Below are positions 19,649 to 64,000 of a stretch of DNA of 64,000 bases, piece by piece (the stretch's first letter is position 1; every line of letters starts with the position of its first letter). A program made the translations under genes and the position numbers. The notes under the pieces were generated by a model. The model was not told where the DNA came from. It did not search any database and was given only the letters and a program-made list of their open reading frames with translations. This DNA comes from Blastococcus haudaquaticus. GTDB lineage: Bacteria > Actinomycetota > Actinomycetes > Mycobacteriales > Geodermatophilaceae. The DNA is taken from positions 62,001 to 126,000 of the forward strand of contig NZ_OCNK01000002.1 of NCBI RefSeq assembly GCF_900230285.1, in the 5' to 3' direction.

Positions 19649-20575
19649 ATGATCTCGGTCGACTCCCTCACCAAGCGGTACGGCGCCCAAGTGGCCGTCT
19701 CCGACGTCTCCTTCTCCTGTCCGCCCGGCACCGTGACCGGCTTCCTCGGGCCGAACGGCGCCGGCAAGTCCACGACGCTGCGGGCCCTGTGCGGACTCAC
19801 CACCCCCACGAGCGGCAGCGCGGTGGTCGGCGGCCGGCGGTTCCGCGACCTGCCCAACGCCGGCCGCACGGTCGGGGTCCTCCTCGACGCCGGCGCTCAG
19901 CACGCGGGACGCACGGGACGGGAGTCCCTCCGGCTGTCCGCGGCGGTGCTCGGCGTACCCCGCACCCGCGTGGACGAGGTGCTGGAGCAGGTGGGTCTCG
20001 CCGGGCGGCCCGCGGACAAGCGGCTGCGGCAGTACTCCCTGGGCATGCGACAGCGGCTCGGCCTGGCGACGGCGCTGCTGGGCGACCCGCAGGTGCTCGT
20101 CCTCGACGAGCCGGCCAACGGCCTGGACCCCGAGGGCATCTTCTGGATGCGCGGTCTGCTCCGGGGCTTCGCCGACCGTGGCGGCACCGTGCTCCTCTCC
20201 TCGCACCTCCTCCGCGAGGTGGAGGCGGTCGCCGACCAGCTCGTCGTGATCGCGGGCGGCCGCATCGTGGCCGCCGGCACCACCCAGGAGCTGTTGGCCG
20301 GTAGCGGAACGCTCGTGCGGGCCCGGGACCGCGCCGCCCTCGCGGCGGCCCTCGCGGCGGCCGGCATCGCCGTGGGAGGCGGATCCGGCGACGCGCTGGT
20401 AACCGACGCGACCGCGGACGCCGTCGGCGAGGCGGCCGCAGCCGCAGGAGTGGTGCTCCGCGAACTGCGCCCCGCCGGGGGAGAGGGGCTCGAGGAGCTG
20501 TTCCGCTCGCTCACCGCAGGCTCACCGGCGGGGACCGTCCCGGCCGCACAGCAGGTCCAGGAGGCCCGGGCATGA
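19649..20575 (+). CDS. ABC transporter ATP-binding protein
   Basis: 308-residue ATPase with Walker A GPNGAGKST at 34-42, signature QYSLGMRQRLGLA, Walker B VLVLDEPANGLDPEG and switch histidine in LLSSHLLREVEAV. A C-terminal extension of about 80 residues follows the ATPase core, as in DrrA/CcmA-type exporters. The next gene overlaps by ATGA and encodes the permease. The system probably exports a lipid-like or antimicrobial compound under control of the adjacent two-component system. Confidence 0.9.
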   Translation: MISVDSLTKRYGAQVAVSDVSFSCPPGTVTGFLGPNGAGKSTTLRALCGLTTPTSGSAVVGGRRFRDLPNAGRTVGVLLDAGAQHAGRTGRESLRLSAAVLGVPRTRVDEVLEQVGLAGRPADKRLRQYSLGMRQRLGLATALLGDPQVLVLDEPANGLDPEGIFWMRGLLRGFADRGGTVLLSSHLLREVEAVADQLVVIAGGRIVAAGTTQELLAGSGTLVRARDRAALAAALAAAGIAVGGGSGDALVTDATADAVGEAAAAAGVVLRELRPAGGEGLEELFRSLTAGSPAGTVPAAQQVQEARA

Positions 20576-21363
20576 CCACCACCACCCTTCCCGCGACGCC
20601 CGATCGGCGGGCGGCGGCCGAGCCGGCCGCCCCGTCGCTGGCGACCCTCACCCGGGTCGAACTGCGGAAGTCCTACGACACCCGGGCGGGCTTCTGGCTG
20701 CTGGTCGTCATCGGGCTCGCCTCGCTGGCCGTCGTCCTGCTGCAGCTGTTCTTCGACGACGGCCCGAACCGGACCTTCGCCGGCTACTTCGCGACGACGC
20801 AGCTTCCGGTGGGCGTGCTGCTGCCGGTGCTCGGCATCCTGCTCGTCACCAGCGAGTGGTCGCAGCGGACCGCGATGACGACCTTCACGCTGGTCCCCGT
20901 CCGGTCGCGCGTGCTCACGGCGAAGGTGCTGGCCGCCTCGGTCCTCGCCGTGCTGGGGGTCGCCGCCGCGTCCGTGGCCGCCGCGCTGGGAACACTGCTC
21001 ACGCCCCTGTTCACCGAGAACGCGGCTGACTGGTCGCTGTCGGCCGCCCAGGTGGGCCAGGTGGTGATCGTGCAGGTGATCACGGTGCTGGTCGGGGTGG
21101 CGTTCGGCATGCTGCTGCTCAGCTCGCCCCTGGCGATCGTCCTGTACTTCGTGCTGCCGACCGTGGTCACGATCCTGGTGAACGCGGTCGGGGCGCTGGA
21201 CTGGGTCCGCGACTGGCTGGACCTGACCTCGACGACGGTGCCGATGTACGAGGGTGCCCTCGACGGCCAGGGCTGGCTCCAGGTCGGGACCTCGGTGGCG
21301 CTGTGGGGAGCGCTGCCGATGGTGGCGGGCTGGCTACGCATCGAGCGCAGCGAGATCGGCTGA
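20572..21363 (+). CDS. ABC transporter permease (ABC-2 type)
   Basis: 263-residue membrane protein with about six transmembrane segments: FWLLVVIGLASLAVVLLQLFF, LPVGVLLPVLGILLVTSE, VLAASVLAVLGVAAASVAAAL, VVIVQVITVLVGVAFGMLL, LAIVLYFVLPTVVTILVNAV and a C-terminal ALWGALPMVAGWL. The SEWSQRTAMTTFTLVPVRSRVL loop is typical of ABC-2 permeases. It works with the overlapping upstream ATPase. Confidence 0.88.
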   Translation: MTTTTLPATPDRRAAAEPAAPSLATLTRVELRKSYDTRAGFWLLVVIGLASLAVVLLQLFFDDGPNRTFAGYFATTQLPVGVLLPVLGILLVTSEWSQRTAMTTFTLVPVRSRVLTAKVLAASVLAVLGVAAASVAAALGTLLTPLFTENAADWSLSAAQVGQVVIVQVITVLVGVAFGMLLLSSPLAIVLYFVLPTVVTILVNAVGALDWVRDWLDLTSTTVPMYEGALDGQGWLQVGTSVALWGALPMVAGWLRIERSEIG

Positions 21364-21380
21364 CGAAAGCCGTGACGAAA

Positions 21381-21412
21381 GGCCGGGCGCTGCAGGGGAG
21401 CGGCGCCCGGCC
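21381..21412. terminator. Hairpin terminator between convergent genes
   Basis: GGCCGGGCGC (21381-21390) pairs perfectly with GCGCCCGGCC (21403-21412) across a 12-base loop, between the permease stop and the stop of the convergent 195-residue gene. No T-run is present, as is common in GC-rich actinobacteria. Confidence 0.65.
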
Positions 21413-21417
21413 CGGAG

Positions 21418-22005
21418 TCAGGCCGGGGTGAGGAGCCAGCGGGCGAAGGCCGACTCGTCGTCGAGCTCCACCATCCAGCGGATGGACAACCGGTAGGTCC
21501 CGGGCAGGACGCGCAGGAGCGGACCGCCGGCGTCGTCGGCCGCTGCGTCGTACTCGGACGACGTCGGGGCCGGGCCCGAGGACTCGGGCGCCAGGGGAGC
21601 GCCGTCCGGGCCCCAGCCGTCGAGCGCGGCGCTGATCAGCGCGAGACGCCCGGTCGGTACCGACAGGGAGTCGCCGTCCTCGTCGTCGTCGGTGGGATGG
21701 GCGAGCGCGGCGCCGAGGATGCCGGGGTAGTCGGGTCCACCGGCCTGGATGATCGCGATCGCGCCGTCGTCGTCGCGGAAGACCTCGAGCCAGCCCTCGT
21801 CACCGACGTCCCCGTCGGTGAGGACGAGCGCCGCCGAGCCGCGCCCGATGGGAACGCTGGTCTTCTCGTAGGAGAGGTCCGGGACGAGCCGCTCGTAGGC
21901 GCCGCCGCTCATGCCGAACCACTCGCCGAGGAGATCGGCGTCGAGCGCCAGGAAGGGCTCGCCGTTGGTCCAGCAGCGGCCGACGTGGGACCAGGTGCGC
22001 GGCAT
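21418..22005 (-). CDS. Hypothetical protein, possibly Imm21-like
   Basis: 195 residues, acidic and without membrane segments. Recognisable strings are GSAALVLTDGDVGDEGWLEVFRDDDGAIAIIQ and the C-terminal YRLSIRWMVELDDESAFARWLL. The latter distantly recalls Imm21-type immunity proteins, but I cannot establish that and no toxin gene is adjacent. The ATG at 22005 is the first plausible start. Treat as function unknown. Confidence 0.6.
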   Translation of the reverse strand: MPRTWSHVGRCWTNGEPFLALDADLLGEWFGMSGGAYERLVPDLSYEKTSVPIGRGSAALVLTDGDVGDEGWLEVFRDDDGAIAIIQAGGPDYPGILGAALAHPTDDDEDGDSLSVPTGRLALISAALDGWGPDGAPLAPESSGPAPTSSEYDAAADDAGGPLLRVLPGTYRLSIRWMVELDDESAFARWLLTPA

Positions 22006-22062
22006 GGGCACCAGTCTGCGGCCTGTCCGCACACGGGCGGTGGCTGCTCCTAGGCTGCCGGC

Positions 22063-22617
22063 ATGACCACGATCTCCGATCGTCCGAACACCGCGCTCCT
22101 GGTCATCGACGTGCAGAACGACGTGGTGGGCGGAGCCCACCGACGCGACGACGTGGTGGCCAACATCGGCACGCTGGTGGGCCGGGCGCGGGCGCACCGC
22201 GTGCCGGTCGTCTGGGTCCAGCACTCCGACGAGCACCTCGAGCAGGGGAGCGCCGGCTGGGAACTGGTCCCCGAGCTCGACCCGGATCCCGGCGAGCCGC
22301 TGGTGCACAAGAACTTCGGCGACTCCTTCGAGGGCACCGACCTGGAGCAGACGCTGGCGCAGGCAGGAGTGGGCCACCTGGTCGTCGCGGGCGCGCAGAG
22401 CGACGCGTGCATCCGGTCGACCATCCACGGCGCGTTCACCCGGGGCTACGACGTCACGCTGGTCGGCGACGCGCACACGACGGAGGACCAGAGCGCCTGG
22501 GGAGCACCGGCGCCCGAGCAGGTCGTCGCGCACACGAACCTCTACTGGGGCTACCAGGCGGCGCCCGGCCGAACCGCACGGGTCGCCGCGACCGCGGACG
22601 TCTCGTTCACCGGCTGA
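22063..22617 (+). CDS. Isochorismatase-like cysteine hydrolase
   Basis: 184-residue hydrolase with the catalytic triad of the family: D16 in LLVIDVQND, K83 in LVHKNFGDSF and C116 in AQSDACIRST. It lacks the carrier domain of true siderophore isochorismatases, so a nicotinamidase- or amidase-like activity is equally possible. TAGGCT (22051-22056) lies six bases before ATG 22063, so the mRNA is probably leaderless. It is the last gene before the dif interval. Confidence 0.88.
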   Translation: MTTISDRPNTALLVIDVQNDVVGGAHRRDDVVANIGTLVGRARAHRVPVVWVQHSDEHLEQGSAGWELVPELDPDPGEPLVHKNFGDSFEGTDLEQTLAQAGVGHLVVAGAQSDACIRSTIHGAFTRGYDVTLVGDAHTTEDQSAWGAPAPEQVVAHTNLYWGYQAAPGRTARVAATADVSFTG

Positions 22618-22657
22618 GTCGCCGGGGAGGGGCCGCGCTGCCCGCCGACGAACGATG

Positions 22658-22685
22658 AGTTGACATAATGTGCATTATCGGCGCA
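22658..22685 (-). other. dif: Candidate chromosomal dif site (XerCD recombination)
   Basis: On the minus strand the 28 bases read as an XerC-type arm TGCGCCGATAA, a six-base centre TGCACA, and an XerD-type arm TTATGTCAACT. This matches the actinobacterial dif consensus as I recall it (TTSRCCGATAAT, VN, ACATTATGTCAAGT) at all but two positions, and it has the same 11-6-11 architecture as E. coli dif. XerC/XerD resolve chromosome dimers here with FtsK help. The site is intergenic, as expected. It implies the window covers the replication terminus. Confidence 0.88.
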
Positions 22686-22921
22686 CGCGGACGAGCGTCG
22701 GAAGGGGCTCGTCCCGGGCCATGATCATCAGTCACCGTCCCGTTCGACCATCCTCCACCTGTGCGCGATGTCGACGCGCTGCGCCGGCCCGCGCGGCCGC
22801 CGCCAGGACGGCGCACCTGGCAGCCACAGCGCGACGCGGGACCTCCAGCGTGATGCGGGAGTTCGGCGACCGACCCTGACGGTCGCAGACCCCGCCACTC
22901 CGGTGGACGACTCCCCCATGA

Positions 22922-22966
22922 GTTGATCTTGTCCGAGTTGATCTTGCATTGGTTGATCTTGGTTCG
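22922..22966 (+). repeat. Three 15-bp tandem repeats with a GTTGATCTTG core
   Basis: GTTGATCTTG occurs at 22922, 22937 and 22952, at an exact 15-bp period. The five-base spacers differ (TCCGA, CATTG, GTTCG), so the core is conserved while the spacer is free. That pattern suggests iterated protein-binding sites more than recent slippage. The core is AT-rich for this genome and lies 264 bp from the dif site. Confidence 0.7.
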
Positions 22967-23031
22967 GACGTTCGGCGCCGTCCTGGTCGCCCGTCGACGC
23001 TCAGGGCGCCACCGGTTCCCGCCTCCCTGGT

Positions 23032-23086
23032 CCGCCCACATCACCGTCATTACGTCACGGTGACGTAATGACGGTGATGTGGGCGG
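23032..23086. repeat. Perfect 55-bp palindrome (27-bp arms, 1-bp centre)
   Basis: The left arm 23032-23058 begins CCGCCCACATCACC and ends TTACGTCAC; the right arm 23060-23086 is its exact reverse complement, separated by one G. Bases beyond each end no longer match. It lies 41 bp before the small lipoprotein gene and 346 bp from dif. It could be a mobile or REP-like element, a strong protein-binding site, or a cruciform-forming terminator; no T-run follows. Confidence 0.8.
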
Positions 23087-23127
23087 CTCGACGGGCGCCG
23101 ACGGCCGAGTGTTCGTAGGGTCGGGTC

Positions 23128-23370
23128 ATGCAACTCCGACGCCCGATCGCCACTCTGTTCACCGCCTTGGCGCTCTTCGGCGGTGGCGTCACGATGACCG
23201 CCTGCGAGTCGGCCGGCCAGGGGCAGAACGACGGAACGACCGACGACAGCGAGAACTCCGGCGGCAGCGACGTCAGCGACGAGGAGTCGGACCGCGAGAA
23301 CCTGCCGGACAACAGCAACCAGGAGCCGAACGACGAGGACGACGGCGACGACCAGCAGGACCCGGACTGA
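23128..23370 (+). CDS. Small acidic lipoprotein
   Basis: 80 residues. An n-region QLRRP, a hydrophobic stretch IATLFTALALFGGGV and a plausible lipobox MTAC (cysteine about residue 26) suggest export and lipidation. The remainder is a low-complexity Asp/Glu/Asn/Ser tail (TTDDSENSGGSDVSDEESD...DDGDDQQDPD), probably unfolded. Similar short acidic lipoproteins occur widely in actinobacteria without known function. Confidence 0.65.
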   Translation: MQLRRPIATLFTALALFGGGVTMTACESAGQGQNDGTTDDSENSGGSDVSDEESDRENLPDNSNQEPNDEDDGDDQQDPD

Positions 23371-23376
23371 TCCGGG

Positions 23377-23742
23377 TCAGCCGGCGCGCTCGCTGACCCA
23401 GAGCCGGTCCAGCCGACCCGTGGAGCGCACCAGCTCGGCGAGCTGCCGTTCCAGTTCGGCCTTGGTCGGCTTCTCGGTCAGCAGGGTCTGGGCGTCCTCG
23501 AGCGCGCAGCGGAGCTGGTACAGCCGGTCCTGCAGCCCGTCCAGCTCGTTGCGCGACACCAGGACGACGTCGCCGGGCAGGCCGGCCTTCGCCGTGGCGG
23601 AGCGCTGCTCGTACGCGCGCTGACGACAGGCCTGCCCGCAGTACAGGCGGGGCCGGCCGACGGATCCCTGGGACGGCAGGACCCGGCGGCACCATCCGCA
23701 GCGCCGTTGCTCGTCGCTCCCCCGGTTCGGGATCGGCGACAT
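23377..23742 (-). CDS. Zinc-ribbon plus coiled-coil hypothetical protein
   Basis: 121 residues. The N-terminal CGWCRR...YCGQACRQRAYEQR (about 14-45) is a four-cysteine zinc motif with a basic tail reminiscent of CGNR/FmdB-type DNA-binding ribbons. The C-terminal half is a predicted amphipathic helix or coiled coil (LDGLQDRLYQLRCALEDAQTLLTEKPTKAELERQLAELVRSTGRLD). The start at ATG 23742 is the best of weak options. The function is unknown; it is the first minus-strand gene past dif. Confidence 0.6.
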   Translation of the reverse strand: MSPIPNRGSDEQRRCGWCRRVLPSQGSVGRPRLYCGQACRQRAYEQRSATAKAGLPGDVVLVSRNELDGLQDRLYQLRCALEDAQTLLTEKPTKAELERQLAELVRSTGRLDRLWVSERAG

Positions 23743-23882
23743 CGGCGTCTCGGTGAGCGTGCCTGCTGCGTGTCGTTCTGCCACGTCTTCGCACGGTAGA
23801 CGCCCGGGACGACAGCTCCCGGGGACACGCCACAGCGAACGGGCGGTGAACGCTCGATCCGCGACGACGGAAGGCGCATCAC

Positions 23883-25058
23883 ATGGACGACACCGACTCC
23901 CCGCTCGGCTTCGACGCCCTCTCCGAGGACTCGCTGCGGGCCGCCGGCAGCCTGAAGTGGACGCGCTACGGGCCGGCGATCGGGGCCTTCGTCGCCGAGA
24001 TGGACTTCGGTACCGCACCGGCGGTCACCACGGCGCTCCACGAGGCCGTCGACCGCGGCCGGCTGGGCTACCTGACCAGCGAGGCCGCCGAGGACATGGC
24101 CCGGGCCTGCTCCGGGTGGCAGCGGCGACGGTACGGCTGGGAGGTGCCTCCGCACCGCATCACGCCGCTCGCCGACGTCGTCGCGGGTCTCCAGGCCGCC
24201 ATCGAGCACTTCACCCCGCCCGGTGGCGCGGTCGTGCTCCCCACGCCCGCGTACATGCCGTTCCTGGCCGTCCCGGGGCTGATGGGCCGGGAGCTCATCC
24301 AGGTCCCCATGGTCGAGCGGCACGGCCGGATGGCCTACGACCTGGACGCGACCGCCGCCGCCTTCGGTCGCGGCGGGCAGCTGTTCGTGCACGTGAACCC
24401 GCACAACCCGCTCGGGCGGGTGTTCGGCGCCGAGGAGCAGCTGGCCCTCGCGGACGTGGTCGAGGCGGCCGGCGTCCGGGTCTTCGCCGACGAGATCCAC
24501 GCCCCGCTGGTGCTCCCGGGGGCGGCCCACCGCCCCTACGCCTCCTTGTCGGCGGCGACGGCCCGGCACACGGTGACGGCCACGTCGGCGTCGAAGGCGT
24601 GGAACCTGCCGGGCCTCAAGGCGGCGCAGCTGCTCCTGAGCAACGACGAGGACGCCGCCCACTGGGAGCGGGTCGGCTTCCTGGCCACGCACGGTGCCTC
24701 GACGCCCGGCGTGCTGGCCAGCACGGCCGCCTACGACGACGGCGGCCCCTGGCTGGACGGCGTCCTGGCGTACCTGGACGGCAACCGGGAGCACCTCGGC
24801 GCGCTGCTCACGGAGCGGCTCCCCGGCGTCCGCTGGACCCCGCCCGAGGGCACGTACCTGGCCTGGCTCGACTGCCGCGCCCTGGACCTGCCCGCGTCGC
24901 CGGGCGCGTTCTTCCTCCAGCAGGCAGGCGTGGCCATGGTGGACGGACCCGAGTGCGGGGCACCGGGCGCCGGGCACGTGCGGCTCAACCTCGCCACGCC
25001 CCGGCCGGTGCTGACGACCATCGTCGAGCGCATGGCCGACGCGGTGCTCCGCAGCTGA
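23883..25058 (+). CDS. PLP-dependent aminotransferase/C-S lyase, MalY/PatB type
   Basis: 391-residue fold-type I PLP enzyme. The family signature is W(T)RYGPAIGAFVAEMDFGTAPAV near the N terminus, HVNPHNPLGRVF, FADEIHAPLVLPG and the PLP lysine K238 in TSASKAWNLPGLKAAQ. The MalY/PatB subgroup includes cystathionine beta-lyases and aminotransferases, so beta-lyase activity is possible but not proven. Upstream 140 bp are free of other genes. Confidence 0.85.
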   Translation: MDDTDSPLGFDALSEDSLRAAGSLKWTRYGPAIGAFVAEMDFGTAPAVTTALHEAVDRGRLGYLTSEAAEDMARACSGWQRRRYGWEVPPHRITPLADVVAGLQAAIEHFTPPGGAVVLPTPAYMPFLAVPGLMGRELIQVPMVERHGRMAYDLDATAAAFGRGGQLFVHVNPHNPLGRVFGAEEQLALADVVEAAGVRVFADEIHAPLVLPGAAHRPYASLSAATARHTVTATSASKAWNLPGLKAAQLLLSNDEDAAHWERVGFLATHGASTPGVLASTAAYDDGGPWLDGVLAYLDGNREHLGALLTERLPGVRWTPPEGTYLAWLDCRALDLPASPGAFFLQQAGVAMVDGPECGAPGAGHVRLNLATPRPVLTTIVERMADAVLRS

Positions 25059-25126
25059 TCACGGCTCTCCCCGGCGGGATCCGGGGCCCCGCGCCGGCGT
25101 CGGGGGGTGCCACTAGCGTGGACGGC

Positions 25127-25903
25127 GTGCCCGCCGCGCATTACGCCTATCTCGACGGGCCCACGCCGTTGGCGATGGCGCACCGCGGCGGCGCCATCGA
25201 GCACCTCGAGAACACGATGCCGGCCTTCCAGGCGTGCGTGGACCTCGGGTACCGGTACCTGGAGACCGACGTCCGGGTCACCGCCGACGGCGTCCTCGTC
25301 GTCTTCCACGACCCCACCCTCGAGCGGGTCACCGACCTGACGGGGCGGGTGGAGCACCTGTCCTGGGCCGAGGTCTCGCAGGCCCGCATCGGGGGCCGCG
25401 AGCCGATCCTGCGCCTGGAGGACCTGCTCGGCGCCTGGCCCGACGTGCGGTTCAACCTCGACATCAAGGCCGCCGGCGTGCTGGCGCCGTTGGTGCGCAC
25501 GGTCCGGCGGCTGGGGGTCGCCGACCGCATCTGCCTCGGGTCGTTCTCCGACGCCCGCATCGCCGCGGCCCGGCGGCTGTTCGGCCCGTCGGTGTGCACG
25601 TCCCTCGGCCCGCGCGGGGTGGCGGCGCTCCGGCTGTCCTCCTACTCCCCCAGGGCAGCGGGGCTGGTGCGCATCCAGGCCGGGTGCGCGCAGGTGCCGC
25701 TCCAGCTGGGCGGGCGGGCCCTGGTCGACGAGCGGTTCCTCGCCGCCGCCCATGCGCGCGGGCTGCAGGTGCACGTGTGGACGGTCGACACCGAGCCGGA
25801 GGCCTCCCGGATGCTGGATCTCGGCGTCGACGGCGTCATGACGGACCGGCCGGCCATGCTCCGGGAGCTGCTGGAGAAGCGCGGCCAGTGGTCCCCGCGG
25901 TGA
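25127..25903 (+). CDS. Glycerophosphodiester phosphodiesterase
   Basis: 258-residue GDPD TIM barrel. Catalytic features are AHRGGAIEHLENT (HR and E/N), ETDVRVTADGVLVVFHDPTLERVT (metal-binding E, D and catalytic H), LNLDIKAAG and VHVWTVDTEPEASRMLDLGVDGVMTDRP. It hydrolyses lipid-derived glycerophosphodiesters to glycerol 3-phosphate. No signal peptide is seen. TAGCGT (25114-25119) lies seven bases before GTG 25127, favouring that start over GTG 25118. GTGA overlap links it to the acyltransferase. Confidence 0.88.
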   Translation: MPAAHYAYLDGPTPLAMAHRGGAIEHLENTMPAFQACVDLGYRYLETDVRVTADGVLVVFHDPTLERVTDLTGRVEHLSWAEVSQARIGGREPILRLEDLLGAWPDVRFNLDIKAAGVLAPLVRTVRRLGVADRICLGSFSDARIAAARRLFGPSVCTSLGPRGVAALRLSSYSPRAAGLVRIQAGCAQVPLQLGGRALVDERFLAAAHARGLQVHVWTVDTEPEASRMLDLGVDGVMTDRPAMLRELLEKRGQWSPR

Positions 25904-26790
25904 GCCTCGGCGAGCGACTGCGCACCTGGCACCCGCGCCCACCGGCCCTGCCCGAGGACCTCGCCCGACTGCTCCGGTCGGACGACCCCGACTGGTTCGC
26001 CCGGGAGCTGGCCATCGCGGCGGCACCACCCTGGTGGTTCTGGCTGTTCGTGCTGCGCCGTTTCTCGTGGCTCGTGGGCATCTTCGGTCGGGTCGAGGTC
26101 ACCGGCGGCGTCGAGGACGGGCTCCGGGACGGGCCCTTGCTCCTGGCCGCCAACCACATCGGCGACTTCGACCCGTTCGTCGTCGCGGTCGCCCTGCACA
26201 AGGCCGGCGTGACGCCACGCATCATGGCGACCGGCGGGATCCTCTCCGCGCCCGTGGTCGGCCCGCTGCTGGAACGGACCGGCGCCATCCGGGTCGAGCG
26301 AGGCACGGAGCTCGCCCGCCACGCGGTACGGGTCACCGAGGTCGCCCTCGTCTCCGGTGGGCACGTCGTCGCCTACCCCGAGGGGCGGGTCGGCCTGGCG
26401 CCGGACGCGTGGCCGGAGCGGGGCCGGACCGGCATGGCGCGCCTCGCCCTCGGCCTGGGTGTCCCGGTCATCCCCGTCAGCCAGTGGGGGGCGCACGAGG
26501 TCCTCCAGTACGGCAACGACTGGGGGAAGCTGCGCACCGCGGCGCGGGCGGTGCTGCGGCGTCCCCGGCTGCAGGTGCACCTCGGGACGCCGGTGCGGCT
26601 GGACGACCTGCAGATGGGCCGGGTCGGCGACGCCAACCGGGCGCGCTACCGCATCGCGGCCGCGATCACCCGCGGGCTCGTGCCGCTGCGGGCGGGTGAG
26701 CGGGACCGGCCGGCGTTCGACGACCCGACCCGGCCGACGACGGCCGTGGCCGCGTACCCCGGTGGTGTGGTTCCGGAGGACATTCCGTGA
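25900..26790 (+). CDS. 1-acyl-glycerol-3-phosphate acyltransferase-like protein
   Basis: 296-residue PlsC-family acyltransferase with the catalytic NHIGDFD box (H86, D91), the GAIRVERG motif, VAYPEGRVG and VPVIPVSQWGAHEV. A hydrophobic segment PPWWFWLFVLRRFSWLVGIFG at about 43-63 probably anchors it to the membrane. It overlaps the phosphodiesterase by four bases (GTGA), so the two form a small lipid-remodelling unit. The acceptor may be lysophosphatidic acid or another lipid. Confidence 0.86.
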   Translation: MSLGERLRTWHPRPPALPEDLARLLRSDDPDWFARELAIAAAPPWWFWLFVLRRFSWLVGIFGRVEVTGGVEDGLRDGPLLLAANHIGDFDPFVVAVALHKAGVTPRIMATGGILSAPVVGPLLERTGAIRVERGTELARHAVRVTEVALVSGGHVVAYPEGRVGLAPDAWPERGRTGMARLALGLGVPVIPVSQWGAHEVLQYGNDWGKLRTAARAVLRRPRLQVHLGTPVRLDDLQMGRVGDANRARYRIAAAITRGLVPLRAGERDRPAFDDPTRPTTAVAAYPGGVVPEDIP

Positions 26791-58238: not shown

Positions 58239-59597
58239 TCACATCGAGGCGATGAGCTTCTCCACCCGGTCGTCGACGGCCTTGAACGGGTCCTTGCACA
58301 GCACGGTGCGCTGGGCCTGGTCGTTGAGCTTGAGGTGGACCCAGTCGACGGTGAAGTCCCGGCGCTTCTCCTGGGCCTTGCGGATGAACTCGCCGCGCAG
58401 CCGGGCCCGCGTCGTCTGCGGCGGCACGTTCTTCGCCTCGAAGATGCGCGGCTCGTGCGCCACGCGCTCGACCTGACCGGCCCGCTCGAGCAGGTAGTAC
58501 AGGCCCCGGCGCCGGCTGATGTCGTGGTAGGCGAGGTCCATCTGCGCGATCCGCGGCGAGCTGAGGGGCAGGTCGCGCTTGGCGCGGTAGCGCTCCAGCA
58601 GGCTGAACTTGATCGCCCAGTCGATCTCGCGGTCGATGAGGGAGAGGTCCTCGGAGTCGACGGCCTTGAGCACCCGTCCCCACAACTCCAGCATCTGCCG
58701 GTGCACCGGGCTGCAGCCCTCGCGGTCGACGAACTCCATGGCCCGGGAGTGGTACTCGGACTGGATCTCGAGCGCCGACATCTCCTTGCCGTTGGCCAGG
58801 CGGACCTTGCGTCGTCCGGTCATGTCGTGGCTGATCTCGCGGATGGCCCGGATCGGGTTCTCCAGCGTCATGTCCTTGATCGGGGTGCCCGCCTCGATCA
58901 TCCGCAGCACCAGGTCGGTCATGGTGACCTTGAGCAGCGTCGTCGTCTCGCTCATGTTCGAGTCGCCGACGATGACGTGCAGCCGCCGGTAGCGCTCCGC
59001 GTCGGCGTGCGGCTCGTCGCGCGTGTTGATGATCGGCCGGGAGCGCGTGGTGGCGCTGGAGACGCCCTCCCAGATGTGCTCGGCGCGCTGGCTGACGCAG
59101 TAGATGGCCCCGCGCGGGGTCTGCAGGACCTTGCCGGCGCCCACCACGATCTGGCGGGAGACGAGGAACGGGATCAGGACGTCGGCCAGGCGGCTGAACT
59201 CGCCGTGCCGCCCGACGAGGTAGTTCTCGTGGCAGCCGTAGCTGTTGCCCGCGGAGTCGGTGTTGTTCTTGAACAGGTAGATGTCGCCGGTGACGCCCTC
59301 CTCGGCGAGGCGCTGCTCGGCGTCGACGAGCAGCCCCTCGAGGATCCGCTCGCCGGCCTTGTCGTGGACGACCAGCTCGGTGAGGTCGTCGCACTCGGCG
59401 GTGGCGTACTCCGGGTGGCTGCCGACGTCGAGGTACAGCCGGGAGCCGTTGCGGAGGAAGACGTTGGAGCTGCGGCCCCAGGAGACCACCCGCCGGAACA
59501 GGTAGCGGGCGACCTCGTCCGGCGACAGCCGGCGCTGGCCCTTGAAGGTGCACGTGACGCCGTACTCGGTCTCGATCCCGAAGATCCGTCGGTCCAC
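58239..59597 (-). CDS. pafA: Pup-protein ligase PafA
   Basis: 452-residue carboxylate-amine ligase (glutamine-synthetase fold) linking Pup's C-terminal glutamate to target lysines. N-terminal [16 protein letters not shown] is the nucleotide/metal site; [34 protein letters not shown] and [29 protein letters not shown] are the shared PafA/Dop motifs. C-terminal [29 protein letters not shown] is characteristic of PafA. TAGTCT six bases before GTG 59597 indicates a leaderless start. Confidence 0.96.
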
Positions 59598-62846: not shown

Positions 62847-64000
62847 TCACGATCCGGTGATGGTGTCGACAAGCTCCTGCGCCGTCGACGTCGACTCGAA
62901 CAGGGCTCCCACGTGCTCCCGGGTGCCCCGCAGCGGCTCCATCGTCGGGATGCGCACGAGGTTCTCCCGGCCCAGGTCGAAGACCACCGAGTCCCACGAC
63001 GCCGCGGCCACCTGGGCCGGGTAGCGCCGCAGGCACTCACCGCGGAAGAACGCGCGGGTGTCCACCGGCGGGTTGACCATCGCCCGGGTCACCTCGTCGT
63101 CGTTGAGCAGCCGCTGCATCGACCCGCGCGCCACCAGACGGTTGTAGAGCCCCTTGTCCGGCCGGATGTCGGAGTACTGCAGGTCGACCAGGTGCAGCCG
63201 CGAGTCCCCCCACGAGAGCCCGTCACGCGTGCGGTAGCCCTCGAGCAGCCGGAGCTTCGCCGGCCAGTCCAGCCGGTCCGCGCAGCGCATCGGGTCGATC
63301 GACAGGTCCTCGAGCACCTCGGCCCAGCGCCGCAGCACGTCGGCGGTCTGCTCGTCGGACTCCCCCTGGGTGGCCACGAACTTCTCGGCCTGCTCCAGGT
63401 AGATCCGCTGGAGGTCGAGGGCCGTCATCCGCCGGCCGTCGCGCAGTCGCACCAGGTGGGTGAGCGTCGGGTCGTGGCTGATCGCCTGGAGCGCCTCGAC
63501 CGGCTCCTCGAGGGCGAGGTCCCCCGGCAGTGCCCGCGCCTCGACCATCGCCAGGACCAGCGACGTCGTCCCGACCTTGAGATAGGTCGACAGCTCCGCC
63601 AGGTTCGCGTCGCCGATGATCACGTGCAGCCGGCGGTACTTGTCCGCGTCGGCGTGCGGCTCGTCGCGGGTGTTGATGATCGGCCGCTTGAGCGTCGTCT
63701 CCAGGCCCACCTCGACCTCGAAGAAGTCCGCCCGCGAGGACAGCTGGAAGCCCTGCGTCCGGCCTTCTGTGCCGATCCCCACCCGTCCGGCTCCGGCGAA
63801 CACCTGCCGCGTGACGAAGAACGGCACGAGACCACGGATGATGTCGATGAACGGCGTCCTGCGGTCCATCAGGTAGTTCTCGTGCGCCCCGTAGGAGGCG
63901 CCCTTGCCGTCGGTGTTGTTCTTGTACAGCTGGATCGTCGGCTGGCCGGGGATGCGGGCGGCGCGGCGGGCCGCCTCGGCCATCACCTGCTCCCCCGCCT
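62847..64000 (-). CDS. dop: Pup deamidase/depupylase Dop (partial)
   Basis: At least 384 residues, the N-terminal roughly 100-120 residues lying beyond the window end. It matches Dop: [92 protein letters not shown] and [21 protein letters not shown]. It deamidates Pup-GGQ to Pup-GGE and removes Pup from substrates. The Met at 63986 is internal. The pup gene follows after 87 bp. Confidence 0.95.

Follow-up and report, generated by a model that had tools for sequence, protein, structure and literature searches.

A dif site in Blastococcus haudaquaticus and conserved boxes beside it in part of the Geodermatophilaceae

The stretch of DNA analyzed here (the window; 64 kb, bases 62001-126000 of the 983,271-base contig 5) comes from the 4,512,672-base genome of Blastococcus haudaquaticus, which is assembled in 11 contigs. 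It contains the 28-mer TGCGCCGATAA-TGCACA-TTATGTCAACT, which a sequence-only reading had proposed as the chromosomal dif site. Direct checking of the sequence placed this 28-mer on the minus strand at the coordinates proposed (Table 1), with the 11-6-11 layout of the dif sites of the phylum, in which two partly palindromic 11-bp arms enclose a 6-bp center. The site is intergenic, as had been claimed, with an isochorismatase-family gene ending on one side of it and a small conserved open reading frame (ORF) starting on the other; two mechanically called ORFs of at least 80 amino acids touch it (22407-22658, plus strand; 22607-23050, minus strand), and their status as genes is unsupported. The two neighbor genes tested on the XerD side are not conserved in the family, with the isochorismatase-family gene present in two of 46 loci and an ABC-type membrane protein in five. 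The convergent ORF beyond the small ORF had no Pfam match above cut-off, and no tRNA was found within the 64-kb window. Repeats across the window are mostly imperfect matches. Two pairs of related stretches (one of 233 bp at 73% identity, one of 65 bp at 77%) lie 4.65 kb apart at 58819-59282 and 63466-63935 and perhaps belong to paralogous genes.

Table 1 Features at and around the dif site, in window coordinates.
Feature	Position	Strand	Remarks
Nearest full YGGGGGAG	20476-20483	plus	XerD side, pointing toward dif
Isochorismatase-family gene	22063-22617		PF00857; XerD side of dif
GGGGAG	22624-22629	plus	XerD side, 28 bases from dif and pointing toward it; shorter than the octamer
dif site, 28 bp	22658-22685	minus	Based on sequence, genome-wide uniqueness and conservation
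XerD-type arm, TTATGTCAACT	22658-22668	minus
Center, TGCACA	22669-22674	minus
XerC-type arm, TGCGCCGATAA	22675-22685	minus
Proximal C-box, CCCCTTCCG	22699-22707	minus	13 bases outside the XerC arm (14-22 positions out)
First polar octamer, TGGGGGAG	22911-22918	minus	XerC side, 225 bases from dif and pointing toward it; part of the distal element
Three CAAGATCAAC copies	22922-22931, 22937-22946, 22952-22961	minus	15-bp spacing; distal element
Perfect 55-bp palindrome	23032-23086		27-bp arms; single-copy in the genome
Small ORF	23128-23370		XerC side; lipoprotein-like by eye; relatives in 41/46 family loci
Convergent ORF	23377-~23770	minus	Cysteine pairs by eye; adjoins the dif region in 42/46 family loci

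The 28-mer is unique within the window at up to three mismatches, with no match in 100 shuffles, and a scan of the whole genome at the same tolerance returned this single match and no further copies. At ≤3 of 28 mismatches it was matched in 24 of 61 genomes, this one included, and its exact sequence occurs in 11 named sequence records (eight Blastococcus, two Geodermatophilus and one 'Frankiales bacterium'). The suggested dif site of Frankia alni (Kono et al. 2011, PMC3025954) is given in the accessible part of that paper with the common 11-6-11 layout, the core CGCCGATAATGCACATTATGTCAA and a place in the terminus region. Three of the 28 positions differ between that site and the present one, all of them among the two outermost bases of the arms (PMC3025954); the sequence-only reading had put the match to the actinobacterial consensus at all but two of 28 bases.

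Conservation was followed with a core pattern of 21 fixed positions, in which the outer and central positions were left free and ≤2 mismatches were allowed in the family and ≤3 in the class. The pattern has one match in the B. haudaquaticus genome at either threshold. It was found in 106 of 112 family genomes (reversed-pattern control, 0/112), with a single match per genome except in G014, where a second copy lies at a contig end. No core match at ≤2 mismatches was obtained in six of the 112 (G090, G017, G003, G032, G108 and G112), and diverged dif sites with three and four mismatches are present in G090 and G017, respectively. Across the class the core was found in 161 of 196 genomes (reversed-pattern control, 2/196), two matches at ≤3 mismatches occurring in six of the 196; positions for the class are those among the matches listed. 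The 35 class genomes without a core match at ≤3 mismatches comprise 18 from group f31/g51 and 17 others. In that group, whose genomes measure 6-11 Mb, all 18 sampled members were without the dif core, which is expected if their chromosomes are linear.

Short oriented sequences around the site were examined in a relative with a single-contig genome of 4,585,415 bases (G010), where 6-, 7- and 8-mers from 40 stretches were ranked by how strongly their orientation favors dif. The rankings were headed by GGGGGA, GGGGGAG and CGGGGGAG, respectively, with TGGGGGAG fifth among the 8-mers. In that relative, YGGGGGAG pointed toward dif in 98 of 106 cases over the 400 kb around dif and in 79 of 89 in 20 farther stretches, and the E. 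coli octamer GGGNAGGG had a far weaker lean (123 toward, 77 away). The B. haudaquaticus genome lay outside the set used for ranking, and the switch of oriented FtsK motifs, which the sequence-only reading had named as a check, was seen there: all 104 copies of YGGGGGAG within positions 1-286000 of the contig point toward dif, 35 from one side and 69 from the other. With the first base left free (NGGGGGAG), 122 copies in these 286 kb point toward dif and six away. The innermost octamers bracket dif and confine the switch in polarity to 2.4 kb. In a second relative (G012), 38 of 38 copies over 80 kb point toward dif. The same octamer, (T/C)GGGGGAG, is the architecture imparting sequence or KOPS of Corynebacterium aurimucosum (PMC2830990) and C. 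variabile (PMC3219685), and the accessible parts of both papers plot it on the leading strands with a change at dif.

The distance between origin and dif was taken from the two relatives G010 and G012, as the assembly of B. haudaquaticus itself is in contigs. With dnaA at 3,230,553 and dif at 778,605, the two arms of G010 measure ~2.45 and ~2.13 Mb (53/47%), which puts dif roughly opposite the origin; in G012, dnaA and dif share one contig and lie 2.49 Mb apart in a genome of ~5.2 Mb, consistent with the same arrangement. Together with the uniqueness and conservation of the site, the distance of dif from dnaA in G010 and the octamer switch at dif strongly support placing the window within the terminus region. 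The accompanying claim that the site fixes the end of replication goes too far, since dif lies near the termination point and need not coincide with it according to the accessible parts of two papers (PMC3025954, PMC13342612). The site marks dimer resolution, near termination, and we place the window in the terminus region only. GC skew was also tried as a test of the terminus: the arms of G010 did not differ significantly in 40 stretches (p = 0.14), and the profile of the window had no clear shift. The placement of dif anchors the terminus region of this genome, which belongs to a high-GC group and for which GC skew was too weak to help.

The genome contains two Xer-type matches and one FtsK gamma domain. 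The XerD-like gene lies on contig 5 (26033-26941), 58 kb from dif, and scored 318 bits against the XerD equivalog and 266 against that of XerC; the XerC-like gene, on contig 2 (42126-42995), scored 306 bits for XerC and 261 for XerD, and both proteins fall slightly below the NCBIfam equivalog cut-offs. The XerD-like gene of G010 (contig 1, 901443-902350) is matched in two pieces in different frames in this assembly; either the sequence contains an error or the gene is broken. By analogy with E. coli, XerC and XerD would bind the two 11-bp arms, and FtsK, guided by YGGGGGAG pointing to dif, would join two copies at the septum and activate XerD, whereupon the dimer would be resolved before division. 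Its uniqueness in the genome, its conservation, its distance from dnaA in a relative, the octamer switch and the XerC-, XerD- and FtsK-gamma-like genes together indicate that the minus-strand 28-mer is almost certainly the chromosomal dimer resolution site. As such, dif itself is an ordinary, expected component of a circular chromosome.

Conservation around the site extends beyond the 28 bp. After removal of duplicates and of loci that were too short, the statistics were based on 104 distinct family flanks. Two to three bases directly after the XerD arm (22655-22657) are conserved both in the family and in 70 flanks from other families, and we regard them as resembling an extension of dif because they are shared with those families; in actinobacteria, dif may extend a little beyond 28 bp. 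With relative entropies of 0.69 and 0.87, these bases are stronger than the C-box on the XerC side, which peaks at 0.73 (position -20); among 600 background positions the highest value was 0.22. The C-box pattern CCCCYYYC at -28 to -10 occurs in 46 of the 104 family flanks compared to four of 70 from other families, and in 0-2 of 104 in each of ten control windows. On the XerD side, counted up to 100 bp from dif in the 104 family loci, the shorter GGGGAG pointed toward dif in 35 cases and away in one. A hairpin on the XerD side (GGAG...CTCC) was considered and rejected, its mean best stem being 4.22 compared to 4.20 in shuffles.

A second conserved element lies farther out on the XerC side. 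An alignment of 28 of the 104 XerC-side flanks, mainly from groups g1 and g12, contained two conserved islands separated by 150-200 bp of unconserved DNA; these flanks were hand-picked, so the alignment serves as illustration and the counts come from pattern searches. In the aligned flanks, the distal element reads CAAGATCAAC, a few bases, then YGGGGGAGTC, and its repeat form in part of the family is CAAGATCA(A/T)C plus one octamer ~225 bp from dif. A loose form, GATC-N3-12-GGGGAGT, was present once each in 36 of 104 loci, always at -283 to -189 from dif, and in two of 104 a loose match was located on the XerD side, more than 1 kb away. By group, the loose form was found in ten of 15 loci of g1, 20 of 23 of g12, four of 22 of g7 and two of 11 others, and the pattern did not find it in g5 (0/25) or g4 (0/8). 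The genus-level group g12 shares the dif flank with B. aggregatus. A strict form, AAGATCA-N2-9-GGGGGAGT, gave 22 matches in 21 genomes when 108 whole genomes were searched, 20 of them 204-245 bases from dif and two elsewhere (G012 contig 1 and G014 contig 8). The spacing of the element to dif varies by some 40 bp. The flank of CAAGATCAAC repeats, octamer and C-box is thus present in part of the family only, and its absence from large groups and its variable spacing mark it as an addition to dif rather than a requirement. Outside the family, one of 30 loci (L218) has AAGATC at -344 followed 18 bases on by GGGGGAG at -326, suggesting that a similar element may exist in other families.

The perfect palindrome between the distal element and the small ORF had looked promising as a terminus element from its proximity to dif. 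Its core, CGTCA-N3-TGACG or a variant, lies ≤900 bp from dif in 86 of 104 family loci, and at ≤1 mismatch the core was found in 47 of 108 genomes, mostly within ~700 bp of dif (exceptions, G004, G020, G066 and G096). Around the conserved core, some outer arms differ between loci yet still pair. In 47 of 56 placements the palindrome is centered 69-72 bp upstream of the start of the small ORF, at any distance from dif, and in nine it lies elsewhere; palindrome and ORF also move together in loci L004, L013 and L167. This constant spacing, whatever the distance to dif, assigns the palindrome to the small gene and ruled it out as a terminus element. It could be an operator or an RNA hairpin, or be kept perfect by template switching. 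The distal element behaves in the opposite way. In L004 and L013, palindrome and gene are displaced to -612 and -582, while the distal element stays at -250 and -221, and over 28 loci with the palindrome 68-72 bp from the ORF the position of the element had a standard deviation of 10 bp relative to dif but 58 bp relative to the palindrome. The CAAGATCAAC/octamer element is anchored to dif rather than to the small gene. The proposal that repeats around the site are candidates for terminus functions accordingly survives for this element, which is tied to dif, and fails for the palindrome, which is tied to a gene start.

What the flank does was considered against known Xer sites. Chromosomal dif is usually described as needing only 28 bp and FtsK, and should the flank play a part in recombination, it would amount to an accessory arrangement at a chromosomal site. 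At the plasmid sites cer and psi, accessory DNA lies on the XerC side and recombination requires PepA with ArgR or ArcA. This accessory DNA is conserved and protein-binding, measures roughly 180-200 bp and adjoins the Xer core site according to the accessible part of one paper (PMC5357621), and the conserved DNA of roughly 200 bp beside the Xer core site in this case may be comparable. Here, unlike cer and psi, the site is chromosomal and accompanied by FtsK-type octamers, and any likeness lies in the conserved boxes. The Corynebacterium octamers differ as well, for in part of the present family one octamer is nearly fixed ~225 bp from dif beside CAAGATCAAC repeats. No description of conserved boxes beside an actinobacterial dif was found in the accessible parts of the open-access literature searched, and the accessible part of the Frankia alni paper (PMC3025954) does not mention boxes outside the 28 bp. 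The likeliest reading of the flank, though with the balance against it, is the hypothesis that a DNA-binding protein acts through these boxes to shape or position the dif complex in the manner of the cer and psi accessory sequences. More specifically, and with similar caution, dif in part of the family might be the core of a ~290-bp complex, made up of the repeats, the last FtsK octamer ~225 bp away and the C-box, in which a putative bound protein controls synapsis or adds a topological filter.

The flank boxes may instead be transcription signals, a promoter or operator that serves either the small gene at 23128 or a small RNA missing from the annotation, a reading we consider possible though not probable. 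A small gene does lie on the XerC side with a conserved palindrome upstream, and promoters typically have short conserved boxes separated by variable spacers, but the distal element stays in place relative to dif and not to the gene (L004 and L013), the DNA between the boxes is unconserved in the 28 aligned flanks, and the region 20000-26000 has no Rfam match at gathering score. It is rather unlikely that the boxes bind a terminus-organizing protein, MatP-like or a fork barrier, apart from Xer recombination. The boxes do lie at the terminus, and with ten occurrences of CAAGATCAAC in the genome, three of them in the distal element, a protein site is plausible; MatP- or Ter-type sites, however, are many and spread over the terminus, and the full element is nearly single-copy and sits beside dif.

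Other readings of the 28-mer itself, as opposed to dif, are far weaker. That a mobile element using XerCD left it behind as an attachment site, and that it is not the chromosome's own dif, is most improbable: an identical core in the viral contigs L189 and L192 indicates that elements may use such sites, but the 28-mer is single-copy, the octamers switch at it, its XerC-side neighbors are kept in 41-42 of 46 family loci and the four window proteins adjoining it that were searched matched no phage family. Nor is it credible as a flagellar-type sigma factor promoter, since although GCCGATAA, which we take to be the -10 sequence of that promoter class, sits in the XerC-type arm, no TAAA was seen by eye upstream at the usual distance, the opposite arm TTATGTCAA is conserved to an equal degree, and a single genomic copy marks the switch in octamer polarity.

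Among the viral contigs, the exact dif core lies at 4706-4729 in L189 (IMG/VR 3300025900_000037) and at 106-129 in L192 (IMG/VR 3300006931_000041), which overlap by 971 identical bp of 67% GC, and L188, L190 and L191 carry the dif core too. One protein of L189 is Rep_1-like, scoring just under the Pfam cut-off, and another, with a P-loop by eye, matches a PHROG named head morphogenesis. From their sequences, L189 and L192 look like filamentous-type phage that could integrate in an actinobacterium through the XerCD of the host.
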